Below are positions 33,019 through 36,150 of a stretch of DNA of 36,354 nucleotides, piece after piece. The DNA is taken from positions 1-36,354 of the forward strand of contig JANXVW010000319.1 of NCBI GenBank assembly GCA_025351455.1. Reading direction: 5' to 3'. Origin of the DNA: Betaproteobacteria bacterium (GTDB lineage: Bacteria > Pseudomonadota > Gammaproteobacteria > Burkholderiales > JACQAP01). Position 1 is the first letter of the stretch. Each line of letters begins with the position of its first letter. A model generated the notes under the pieces. The model saw nothing but the letters and a program-made list of their open reading frames with translations, searched no databases and had not been told where the DNA came from. A program made the translations under genes and the position numbers.

Positions 33019-33441
33019 TTATTGGATCGAAAGCTTCCTGGCGGGCGCGACGGCCTTCTTGGGCAACCGCAGTTCCAGCACGCCATTCGTGTACTTGGCT
33101 TCCGACGCCGCTTCGTCCACCTCCTGCGCCAGGCTGAACGCGCGGTAGACCTTGCCGTAATAGCGCTCCGAGCGCAGCACCCTCTCGCCCTGCTTTTCTT
33201 CCTGGTGATTTTTAACTTCGGCCGTAATCGCGACCTGGTTGCCGTCGATGGTGACCTGGATGTCGTCTTTCTTCACACCAGGTATTTCGGCGTGCACGGT
33301 GTAGGCTGCTTCATCTTCCGTCACATCCATGCGCGCTTCCGCAACCGGCTCGGCGTCGAACGCCGACGGACGCGCGATAAAGCTCCTGAACAAGCTGTCG
33401 ACGGAACTGTCGTACGGGGTGTATCGGATCAAACTTACCAT
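33019..33441 (-). CDS. Small heat-shock protein Hsp20 (alpha-crystallin family)
   Basis: 140-aa chaperone that holds unfolding proteins in large assemblies. The alpha-crystallin domain (about residues 35-130) has VHAEIPGVKKDDIQVTIDGNQVAI, RYYGKVYRAFSLAQEV and the conserved ASEAKYTNGVLELRLPKK; the C-terminus ends KLSIQ, an IxI-like motif. The ATG at 33441 is fixed by AAGGAG seven bases upstream, which also gives the usual MVSLIRYTPYD start. A sigma-32-type promoter precedes it, and the terminator is strong, so it is a single-gene heat-shock unit. Confidence 0.94.
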   Translation of the reverse strand: MVSLIRYTPYDSSVDSLFRSFIARPSAFDAEPVAEARMDVTEDEAAYTVHAEIPGVKKDDIQVTIDGNQVAITAEVKNHQEEKQGERVLRSERYYGKVYRAFSLAQEVDEAASEAKYTNGVLELRLPKKAVAPARKLSIQ

Positions 33442-33513: not shown

Positions 33514-33711
33514 AGCATCTTTGCCGGTCCCCGGAATGGCGGGCCTCGGGCTTTGGGGACTAAACTTCCGGATTCAAGGCGGCCTCAGGCGCAAGCCAGG
33601 CGTCGCGGGGCGCTGCATCCAATTGGCGGTGCATTGCGTACTTGGGTCTACGGCAGGCAAATACGGCCGTAACCAGGCAGATCGTCATTCACATTCGAAG
33701 GAGAGCGAACC

Positions 33712-33969
33712 ATGGAAGGCAAGAAAATCTTGGGCTTGGCGGTAGCGGCTTCCGCTGCTGCACTTTTCATCACCGGCTGTGCGAACATGGGCGGCGGCAC
33801 CCATTCCGGCACTGAAGCGAAGGTCGCCTGCAGCGGCGGCAACGCCTGCAAGGGCCAGAGCGAGTGCAAGAGCGCGAACAGTTCCTGCAAAGGCCAGAAC
33901 GCCTGCAAGGGCCAGGGCTTCGTTTCCCTGACGTCGGAAGAATGCAAGAAAGCGACCAACCGCTCGTAA
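33712..33969 (+). CDS. Bufferin-type Cys-rich metallophore precursor (BufA2-like)
   Basis: 85-aa small precursor of a ribosomal peptide that is probably modified and exported. It has a Sec-type signal with a lipobox (FITGC, Cys23) and a mature part with six cysteines at 40, 46, 52, 59, 65 and 78. Three CKGQ repeats start at 46, 59 and 65, preceded by CSGG. This matches the cysteine-rich bufferin group, in which a DUF692 (MNIO) enzyme converts cysteines to thio-oxazole-type groups that bind copper. A strong ribosome binding site (AAGGAG, 8 bases) precedes the ATG. The next two genes encode the expected enzyme and partner. That the product is lipid-anchored is inferred from the lipobox. Confidence 0.8.
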
Positions 33970-33976
33970 TGTTCGG

Positions 33977-34010
33977 GTGCGGGAACGCCGGCGTGCCGGC
34001 CTTCCCGCAC
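33977..34010 (+). other. Hairpin between bufA and bufB
   Basis: GTGCGGGAA (33977-33985) pairs with TTCCCGCAC (34002-34010). Inside it GCCGG pairs with CCGGC across a CGTG loop, with one C-C mismatch. It begins 7 bases after the precursor stop, has no T tract and could protect the precursor mRNA or weaken read-through into the enzyme gene. Confidence 0.75.
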
Positions 34011-34033
34011 CAGGCACGCTCGAAAGGTTCTTC

Positions 34034-34864
34034 ATGACGGCGGCTTTGGGATTCGGGCTCGGCCTGCGCACCGATCACTACGAGGCGATCCTCGAATCGC
34101 ATCCGCGGGTCGACTGGTTCGAGGCGCTCAGCGAAAACTATCTGGTGCCCGGCGGCAAGCCGCTGTATTACCTAGATCGCATCCGCGCCGATTACCCCAT
34201 CGTCCTGCATGGCGTGTCGCTTTCGATCGGCAGTGCGGATCCCCTCGACCGCGATTATCTCAAGGCGCTGAAACAGCTCGCGCAGCGCGTTGAACCGGCC
34301 TGGGTCTCCGATCACTTGTGCTGGACCGGCGTGGCCGGCAAGAACCTGCACGACCTGTTCCCGATTCCCTACACCGAGGAAGCCGTCGAGCACGTCGCCG
34401 CCCGCGTGCGCGAAGTGCAGGATTTCCTCGGCCGCCGCATCCTGCTCGAAAACGTATCGAGCTACGTGACCTTCCGCGGCTCCGAGATGAGCGAGTGGGA
34501 TTTCTTGTCCGAGATCGCGCGGCGTGCCGACTGCCAGGTGCTGCTCGACGTAAACAACATCTATGTCAGCGCGTTCAACCACGGCTTCGATGCCCTCGAG
34601 TTCCTGAACGGCATTCCCGTCGAGCGTGTGCGCCAGATCCACCTGGCCGGCCACAGCAACTGCGGGACGCACATCATCGACACGCACGATGCCGAAATCA
34701 TCAACGCGGTCTGGGACCTGTACGCCACGGCGGTGCGCCGCTTCGGCAACGTGGCGACCATGATCGAGCGCGACGACCACATTCCGCCGCTGGCGGATCT
34801 GGTTGCGGAACTCGGCCGAGCGCGCGAAATCGCCGCGCATTCCCTACAGGCCAAAGCGGCGTGA
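34034..34864 (+). CDS. bufB: DUF692 multinuclear non-heme iron oxidase (BufB-like)
   Basis: 276-aa TIM-barrel enzyme of the MNIO family, which uses a cluster of irons to oxidise peptide cysteines. Numbered from the ATG at 34034: the conserved His59 in [28 protein letters not shown] with the metal Glu, [17 protein letters not shown] with Asp, Asn and His, QIHLAGH, and IDTHD followed by MIERDDHIP. This is the full family pattern, so it should be active. The start follows AAAGG; the frame upstream runs through the bufA-bufB hairpin and has no support. It should modify the CKGQ cysteines of the precursor encoded just upstream. Confidence 0.93.
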
Positions 34865-34871
34865 ACAGGTT

Positions 34872-35657
34872 ATGAAGCAACTTGCCACAACCGAAGCGCA
34901 TTTCCAGGACTACGTGCTGACGGGCAACCCCGCCATTGATGGAGAAATCGACGGCGACGGCGCCGAATTCCGTAACGCGCGCCTGGCCATCTACCGCGAC
35001 GCCTACCGCCTGCGCCTGATCGAGGTCCTCGGCAACGACTATGACGTCCTGCACGCCTACCTGGGCGACGACTCCTTCGACGCCCTGGCGGCCGAATATG
35101 TTGCCGCGCATCCCTCCACGTTTCGCAACGTGCGTTGGTTCGGCGGCCGGATGGCGGATTTCCTGGATGCGACGCCGCGCTACGCCAACCATCCCGAGCT
35201 GGGCGAGCTCGCCCGCTTCGAATGGTCGCTGGGCATGGCCTTCGATTCGCCGGACGAGGACCCGGTGCAATTCGCAGAAGTCGCGGGCGTGCCGCCGGAA
35301 GCCTGGGCGGACCTTCGCTTCAGGCCCCACCCGAGCCTGCGCCGGATGGGCCTGCATACGAATGCGGTCGCAATCTGGAAGGCAATTGGCGATGAGGCCG
35401 ATCCGCCGGCCGCGGAAACATTTACCGCACCGGTCGCTTGGGCGATCTGGCGCAAGCAGCATTCGCCGTTTTTCCGGTCGCTGGAAGAAGACGAGGCCTG
35501 GGCGCTGGGCGCGCTGCTGGCCCAGGCCAGTTTCGGCGAGATTTGCGCCGGCTTGTGTGAATGGGTTGCCGAAGACGCCGCGCCGGCGCGCGCCGCCGGC
35601 TTGCTACGCGGCTGGGTCGAAGAAGGCTGGATTGCGGAACTGCTGATTGCGGCCTAG
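34872..35657 (+). CDS. bufC: DUF2063 putative recognition partner (BufC-like)
   Basis: 261-aa protein of the DUF2063 family. The N-terminal domain (about 1-95) has FQDYVLTG, NARLAIYRDAYRLRLIEVLGNDYDVLHAYLGDDSFDALAAEYV, which is diagnostic; the C-terminal part (about 130-261) is variable and includes the PCLR-type segment ADLRFRPHPSLRRM. In other systems this protein partners the MNIO enzyme, holding the precursor leader. The ATG at 34872 follows AGGT, 7 bases after bufB, so the genes are coupled. It converges on the copper chaperone gene with a 10-base gap and no terminator. Confidence 0.88.
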   Translation: MKQLATTEAHFQDYVLTGNPAIDGEIDGDGAEFRNARLAIYRDAYRLRLIEVLGNDYDVLHAYLGDDSFDALAAEYVAAHPSTFRNVRWFGGRMADFLDATPRYANHPELGELARFEWSLGMAFDSPDEDPVQFAEVAGVPPEAWADLRFRPHPSLRRMGLHTNAVAIWKAIGDEADPPAAETFTAPVAWAIWRKQHSPFFRSLEEDEAWALGALLAQASFGEICAGLCEWVAEDAAPARAAGLLRGWVEEGWIAELLIAA

Positions 35658-35667
35658 CGGCCGGTAG

Positions 35668-36150
35668 TTAATGATGCTCGTGCTTGTCAGCAGTCCCGGC
35701 ATCGCGATCGCGCACCTGGGCTTCGACCACGATTTGATGCTGGTGTTTGGAACTGTCCTCGACGGTGAGTTCGAGTTTCAGCTTCTGCCCGGTCACCAGC
35801 GATTGCTTGAGGTCGAACAGCATGACGTGATAGCCGCCCGGCGCGAGCTTCACCCGCTTGCCGGCCGGCAGTTCCAGGAAGGGCACGGCGCGCATCCTCA
35901 TCATGCCCTTTTCCATTTTCATCTGGTGCACTTCCGCCGTTTCCGACGCCACGCTCTTGGCGCCGGTCAGGCGCAGATTCTGCCGCGCGACGAGTTCCAT
36001 GTAGACACCGCCGACCTTCTGCCCCGGCACGGTCGCCCTCGCCCAGGGGTCGACCACCTTGACCAGTTCGGCGGCGTGCGTGCCGCCTGCCAGGAGGCTG
36101 ACCAGCAGCACCGTGGTGCAATAACCGTATCTGAGCAAAGGGTTCGTCAT
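35668..36150 (-). CDS. PCu(A)C periplasmic copper chaperone
   Basis: 160-aa protein with a signal peptide (about 1-26, ending THA/AEL) and the PCu(A)C domain. The copper motif reads HQM, then MRMRAV, then GGYHVMLF, close to the H(M)x10Mx21HxM pattern. The C-terminus is His-rich (KHQHQ and DKHEHH), an addition that could bind metal. The family delivers Cu(I) to cytochrome oxidase CuA sites. The ATG at 36150 is the best family-like start; the frame is open upstream to 36264 without support. Convergent location beside the bufferin genes suggests a common copper theme. Confidence 0.92.
   Translation of the reverse strand: MTNPLLRYGYCTTVLLVSLLAGGTHAAELVKVVDPWARATVPGQKVGGVYMELVARQNLRLTGAKSVASETAEVHQMKMEKGMMRMRAVPFLELPAGKRVKLAPGGYHVMLFDLKQSLVTGQKLKLELTVEDSSKHQHQIVVEAQVRDRDAGTADKHEHH

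Follow-up and report, generated by a model that had tools for sequence, protein, structure and literature searches.

The described systems closest to the locus reported here are the bufferin-2 clusters (Buf2/BufA2; Buf_6/12Cys; NF050166; Antoine et al. 2025, PMC12452194), which combine a precursor carrying a Sec signal and six core cysteines with an MNIO enzyme and a DUF2063-RRE partner protein. The bufABC order is strictly conserved among the published clusters, and predicted lipoprotein signals are found in about 16% of Buf2 precursors (PMC12452194). For Caulobacter Buf2, mass loss, absorbance at 305 nm and a copper function have been published, the modification in that study resting on mass loss and UV only, and the outer cysteines of Buf1 are disulfide cysteines (PMC12452194). 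The Cys-Lys captophorins (BufA2B2C2; Gadgil et al. 2026, PMC13097082) have Cys-Lys motifs in their precursors, and in their MNIO the catalytic Asp is followed by a second Asp, which marks Cys-Lys MNIOs. In the RiPP-lipoprotein hybrids (DAG-RiPPs, including DybA and NedA; Chen et al. 2025, PMC12636315), an MNIO-modified precursor bears an SPII signal; lipidation of the MNIO-modified relative NedA has been shown experimentally, and predicted DAG-RiPPs include a subset of bufferins.

We analysed a 36,354-nucleotide stretch of DNA from a betaproteobacterium (the window) containing a locus that shares with Buf2 its precursor family, six core cysteines, Sec signal, gene order and MNIO and DUF2063-RRE partners, with the Cys-Lys captophorins the Cys-Lys motifs and the additional Asp, and with the DAG-RiPPs an SPII signal on a precursor predicted to be MNIO-modified. 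It differs from the Buf2 clusters in lacking doxX and in possessing a convergent PCu(A)C gene, a neighbour absent from the main text of that paper. Unlike the captophorins, the operon is known here from its genes alone, with its product predicted, and whereas NedA is of the EGKCG oxazolin type, the window precursor is a BufA2.

Results

Positions 33712-36150 of the window contain genes for a Cys-rich precursor, an MNIO and a DUF2063 partner, all on the forward strand, and a convergent PCu(A)C gene on the reverse strand. The precursor gene bufA2 (33712..33969, +; 85 aa, signal peptide 1-22, core C40-C78) is followed after 64 nt by bufB (34034..34864, +), encoding an MNIO (DUF692/PF05114) bufferin maturase of 276 aa, and after a further 7 nt by bufC (34872..35657, +), encoding a DUF2063-RRE partner protein (PME type 1, PF09836) of 261 aa. 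Only 10 nt separate bufC from the gene for the periplasmic copper chaperone PCu(A)C (35668..36150, -; PF04314, 117.8 bits; motif H-X10-M-X21-H-X-M). A divergent gene for an HSP20 small heat-shock protein (33019..33441, -; PF00011), a neighbour kept in relatives, lies outside the operon. The precursor scored 78.6 bits against NCBIfam Cu_RiPP_BufA2 (NF050166; cut-off 60, E=2.9e-22) and the MNIO 396.9 bits against MNIO_BufB (NF050167; cut-off 310, E=3.5e-119), and Pfam matches were obtained to PF05114 (MbnB_TglH_ChrH, 1.6e-115), DUF2063 (1.3e-20) and PCuAC (2.6e-34). These family matches are far above chance level. Codon changes relative to locus L052 (G001:C26), the closest relative, were mostly synonymous (16 synonymous and 9 non-synonymous in bufA2; 85 and 19 in bufB), indicating that both frames are under purifying selection.

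A first-pass annotation of this DNA had called a bufferin (BufA2-BufB-BufC) operon with an adjoining copper chaperone, and every element that it named is present. Its description of an undescribed system, however, could not be upheld, as the matches over cut-off to NF050166 and NF050167 place the locus in the recently described bufferin-2 family. It had also remarked on a missing doxX gene, and none was found between the HSP20 gene and the window end. Because doxX is listed as core but not universal in Buf clusters, its absence is not defining for BufA2 membership; the absence is real, but it is not a notable trait, doxX being unneeded in Buf2 loci and present in the other bufferin operon of this genome (its frequency near Buf2 loci, from a profile grown from one seed, is indicative only). 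A BufA2-type (bufferin-2, Cys-Lys captophorin) operon is very probably the best explanation of the locus, which we firmly place among BufA2 bufferin operons of the lipoprotein subtype, as nothing categorically new.

The enzyme and its partner were compared with characterised proteins. By alignment, the BufB motif is ERDD, in which D247 occupies the catalytic base position and D248 that of the Asp of Cys-Lys specificity; the BufB1 of the same genome has EWDT, and HvfB-type copies have ERDF. Relatives were fetched with the pattern MIERDDH, so that the frequency of ERDD among them is biased. Structures related to the window MNIO include 3BWW, TglH and MbnB. The AlphaFold model of BufC (mean pLDDT 92.6) had its best PDB match in 3DEE (NGO1945; E=1.4e-6, TMq 0.60, TMt 0.75) and also matched TglI (8HCI) and, weakly, lasso-peptide RRE proteins; as modelled, BufC is a DUF2063 protein with an RRE-like domain, a partner of PME type 1.

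The core region of the precursor (33829..33945, +) has six cysteines conserved in an alignment of 81 sequences (C40, C46, C52, C59, C65 and C78). Four of them, C46, C52, C59 and C65, form Cys-Lys pairs and are flanked by C40 and C78; CKGQ occurs at C46, C59 and C65, and the context of C52 is ECKSA. C78, left free by the selection pattern, was invariant among the alignable BufA2 relatives (81/81), and Lys followed C52 in 72 of these 81, C59 in 70 and C65 in 79, whereas C40, C46, C52, C59, C65 and K47 were demanded by the pattern with which the relatives were selected. This conservation of Lys suggests that the likely modification sites are the four Cys-Lys positions and not three CKGQ motifs, and we rejected CKGQ as the defining signal, since in the alignment its Q is variable and Cys-Lys is conserved. 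The three CKGQ cysteines singled out earlier are thus present and among the likely sites, but they are not the sole ones, C52 being a fourth, equivalent Cys-Lys. Judged from conservation, up to four cysteines may be modified, and C40 and C78 can be likened, by analogy, to the disulfide cysteines that flank the Buf1 core.

Inspection of the precursor's signal peptide showed an n-region with KK and a hydrophobic stretch, then a lipobox, I-T-G-Cys23 (33769..33780, +), which was also reported in the first-pass annotation and is conserved at the same position in orthologues. Cys23 is the lipid attachment site predicted by the lipobox rule, LspA is encoded in the genome, and the residue at +2 after Cys23 is Ala. 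Under the E. coli Lol rule, Ala at +2 points to the outer membrane. The signal peptide pattern A..AA.[LM]F was kept in both lipidated and soluble forms across the 81-sequence alignment, in agreement with a published hint that BufBC recognition occurs partly through the signal peptide. The earlier suggestion that the lipobox sets this peptide apart from bufferins had to be abandoned in view of the predicted lipoproteins among Buf2 precursors (PMC12452194) and of lipidated NedA (PMC12636315).

Of 88 Cys-Lys precursors, a motif script flagged 21 as lipoboxed; L061 and L126 joined them when the sequences were read, and after removal of L060, a duplicate of L057, the count was 22 of 87 distinct precursors (about 25%), in a set biased towards close MNIOs. 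On the MNIO tree, the trait requires at least nine changes. A single clade of all lipobox loci was rejected at a borderline level (p-AU 0.047), and a clade of the window, L052, L057, L061, L062, L067 and L070 was not rejected (p 0.50). A single lipobox origin is thus disfavoured, at this borderline level, and repeated gains or losses of the lipobox are probable. Within the genus, the MNIO-adjacent copies (window, L052 and L057) are lipoboxed, and the soluble paralogues encoded elsewhere have no lipobox.

The convergent arrangement of bufA2BC and PCuAC was found in the window and in L052, L061, L062, L067, L070 and L180, that is, in seven genomes from at least two GTDB families. All seven PCuAC-linked precursors are lipoboxed, and these loci share the setting argB-HSP20-...-PCuAC-dacC-dat. 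The window's genome gave one PCu(A)C match among the matches listed from a scan of 399 genomes. G003, of the same genus, has argB-PCuAC-dacC (L196) with its bufferin elsewhere (L057), and G031 has PCuAC-dacC (L199) and no adjacent bufferin within the stretch read. As PCuAC-dacC pairs exist without a bufferin, the bufferin-PCuAC link may be an inherited neighbourhood, and these two loci weaken the argument that synteny proves a functional link. The link is old, with a functional partnership as a candidate only. In L061, L062, L067 and L070, an extra ERDF (HvfB-like) MNIO-DUF2063 pair directly precedes the lipoboxed bufA2, and no EGKCG precursor was noticed beside this pair in the four loci. The sister species G002 has a contig end with the 3' end of bufC next to PCuAC (C427, L195) and, on another contig, a broken bufB2-like fragment (C240, L176).

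The window's genome contains a second bufferin system, a complete BufA1 (DUF2282)-BufB-BufC-DoxX operon (G000:C216, L050). It shares with the window locus the MNIO-DUF2063 pair and a secreted Cys peptide, but has another precursor family, doxX, no lipobox, and EWDT where the window MNIO has ERDD. This genome also encodes two soluble BufA2 copies that lack a nearby MNIO gene (G000:C130:283-507 and G000:C149:11170-11391; L048 and L049). Precursor homologues without an MNIO neighbour had been named beforehand as evidence against the bufferin reading; two such genes do exist, but MNIO-less precursors are common in the BufA2 family, and the orphan copies therefore do not refute it. With two MNIOs found in the genome (assembly 98.8% complete, 353 contigs), the window BufBC would be its sole pair of the Cys-Lys type and may mature all three BufA2 precursors; several precursors with one MNIO pair are an already known situation. 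G001:C30 and G002:C376 likewise have soluble BufA2 genes without an MNIO nearby. Downstream of the C130 and C376 copies comes a gene for an HD-domain protein that distantly resembles PhnZ/TmpB-type oxygenases (under cut-off), and an RND efflux operon is near.

Upstream of bufA2 lies a block, GCCGTAACCAGGCAGATCGTCA-TCACATT-GAAGG (33666..33703, +), that has the ribosome-binding site at its end, is near-identical in the closest relative and is a candidate regulatory or leader element. The exact sequence GCCGTAACCNNGCAGATCGTCA occurred only in the window and before the G001 orthologue of bufA2. The GCCGTAACCAGGCAGATCGTCA portion (33666-33687) is identical before bufA2 in two species; a search of four genomes of the genus that allowed up to two mismatches gave no other occurrence. 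A sigma-70 scan was without match, and no copper-responsive promoter could be recognised. The Caulobacter SigF ECF promoter reportedly has a motif of the GTAACC plus CGAA kind; GTAACC is present here, but as the distance from it to CGAA is 21 and the relative has not preserved CGAA, we do not claim an ECF promoter. In G001, the bufA2 orthologue is directly preceded by two genes (L052:4640-5522, -), one for an ECF sigma factor of the TIGR02943 family and one for a zf-HC2 anti-sigma factor; a search of the window's genome gave no copy over cut-off. In the literature, sigma genes are described in Buf1 clusters and none in Buf2 clusters.

Discussion

From characterised relatives, we infer thiooxazole formation, copper chelation and membrane anchoring for the product of this operon. 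In the model that we propose, BufC would present the precursor to BufB in the cytoplasm, possibly via the conserved signal-peptide motif A..AA.LF, and BufB would oxidise up to four core cysteines (C46, C52, C59 and C65) by four electrons each, most likely yielding copper-binding 5-thiooxazoles, with C40 and C78 probably forming a disulfide like the outer cysteines of Buf1. The modified precursor would be exported by Sec, Cys23 would gain a diacylglyceryl group, LspA would cleave, and Ala at +2 would send the lipoprotein to the outer membrane. The anchored peptide would then chelate periplasmic copper under copper excess, and PCu(A)C, another periplasmic copper carrier, may act alongside it.

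Other identities and other metals were considered. The relatedness of the MNIO and a weak HvfC model match could suggest an HvfA/oxazolin (EGKCG, Lys-Cys) system. However, the proposed search of the precursor against BufA2/HvfA-type families passed the BufA2 cut-off, the precursor contains no EGKCG, the HvfB and HvfC scores lie below their cut-offs (281.4 bits, cut-off 360; 31, cut-off 142), and the MNIO carries ERDD, not ERDF, so that this identity is almost certainly wrong. A Buf1 identity (DUF2282 precursor, four cysteines) was rejected, as the precursor has no DUF2282 match. It is also very unlikely that another soft metal (gold, mercury or silver) is the main target: bufferin operons were formerly named gig, for gold-induced, and MerC fusions exist (PMC12452194), but here a copper chaperone gene adjoins, and a copper function has been reported for both Caulobacter Buf1 and Buf2.

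Two further alternatives accept the bufferin assignment and concern the fate of the peptide. Cleavage by signal peptidase I near C23 would leave Cys23 without lipid and release a soluble periplasmic peptide, and soluble paralogues with a similar h-region do occur in the genus; the lipobox, moreover, was called from its motif alone. We nevertheless consider such cleavage unlikely, as an exact lipobox closes the h-region and is shared by the three closest loci and by every one of the seven loci linked to PCuAC, inspection found no AXA-type site after Cys23, and LspA is encoded in the genome. Alternatively, the anchored peptide might serve storage or delivery and not detoxification, swapping copper with PCu(A)C in the assembly of cytochrome oxidase, as the convergence of PCuAC with bufC in seven genomes, each time with a lipoboxed precursor, and the single PCuAC among the genome's listed matches would allow. 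This seems rather unlikely, given that PCuAC-dacC pairs lacking a bufferin occur in L196, from the same genus, and in L199, that bufC and PCuAC are convergent and not co-transcribed, and that the bufferins known so far work under copper excess.

Under the preferred reading, a lipid-anchored BufA2 bufferin acting on copper, the locus adds a clean, syntenic set of such bufferins beside a copper chaperone. On its own it leaves the known picture as it was, and its most useful aspects are the recurrent copper-chaperone neighbour and the pairing of anchored and soluble BufA2 in one genome, which lends itself naturally to the question of what anchoring adds; the same genome also allows one to ask whether a single MNIO serves several precursors. 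A more speculative extension, to which we give rather little credence, is that the window BufBC pair modifies three precursors encoded at separate loci, one anchored in the outer membrane beside the sole PCu(A)C found and two diffusing freely, and that buffering is thereby spatially divided, with copper exchanged with PCu(A)C.

Variant architectures were seen elsewhere in the family. In L090 and L125, a single MNIO is preceded by tandem BufA2 genes, of which one is lipoboxed and the other has an ordinary signal peptide. In L141, L142 and L145 (G151, G187 and G113), one frame of ~590-620 aa matches both MNIO and DUF2063, an apparent BufB-BufC fusion beside BufA2. The Legionella and Tatlockia loci L089, L095, L102 and L117 encode long, Cys-rich precursors in which CKS/NNCK repeats are many, adjoined by BufB-type enzymes.
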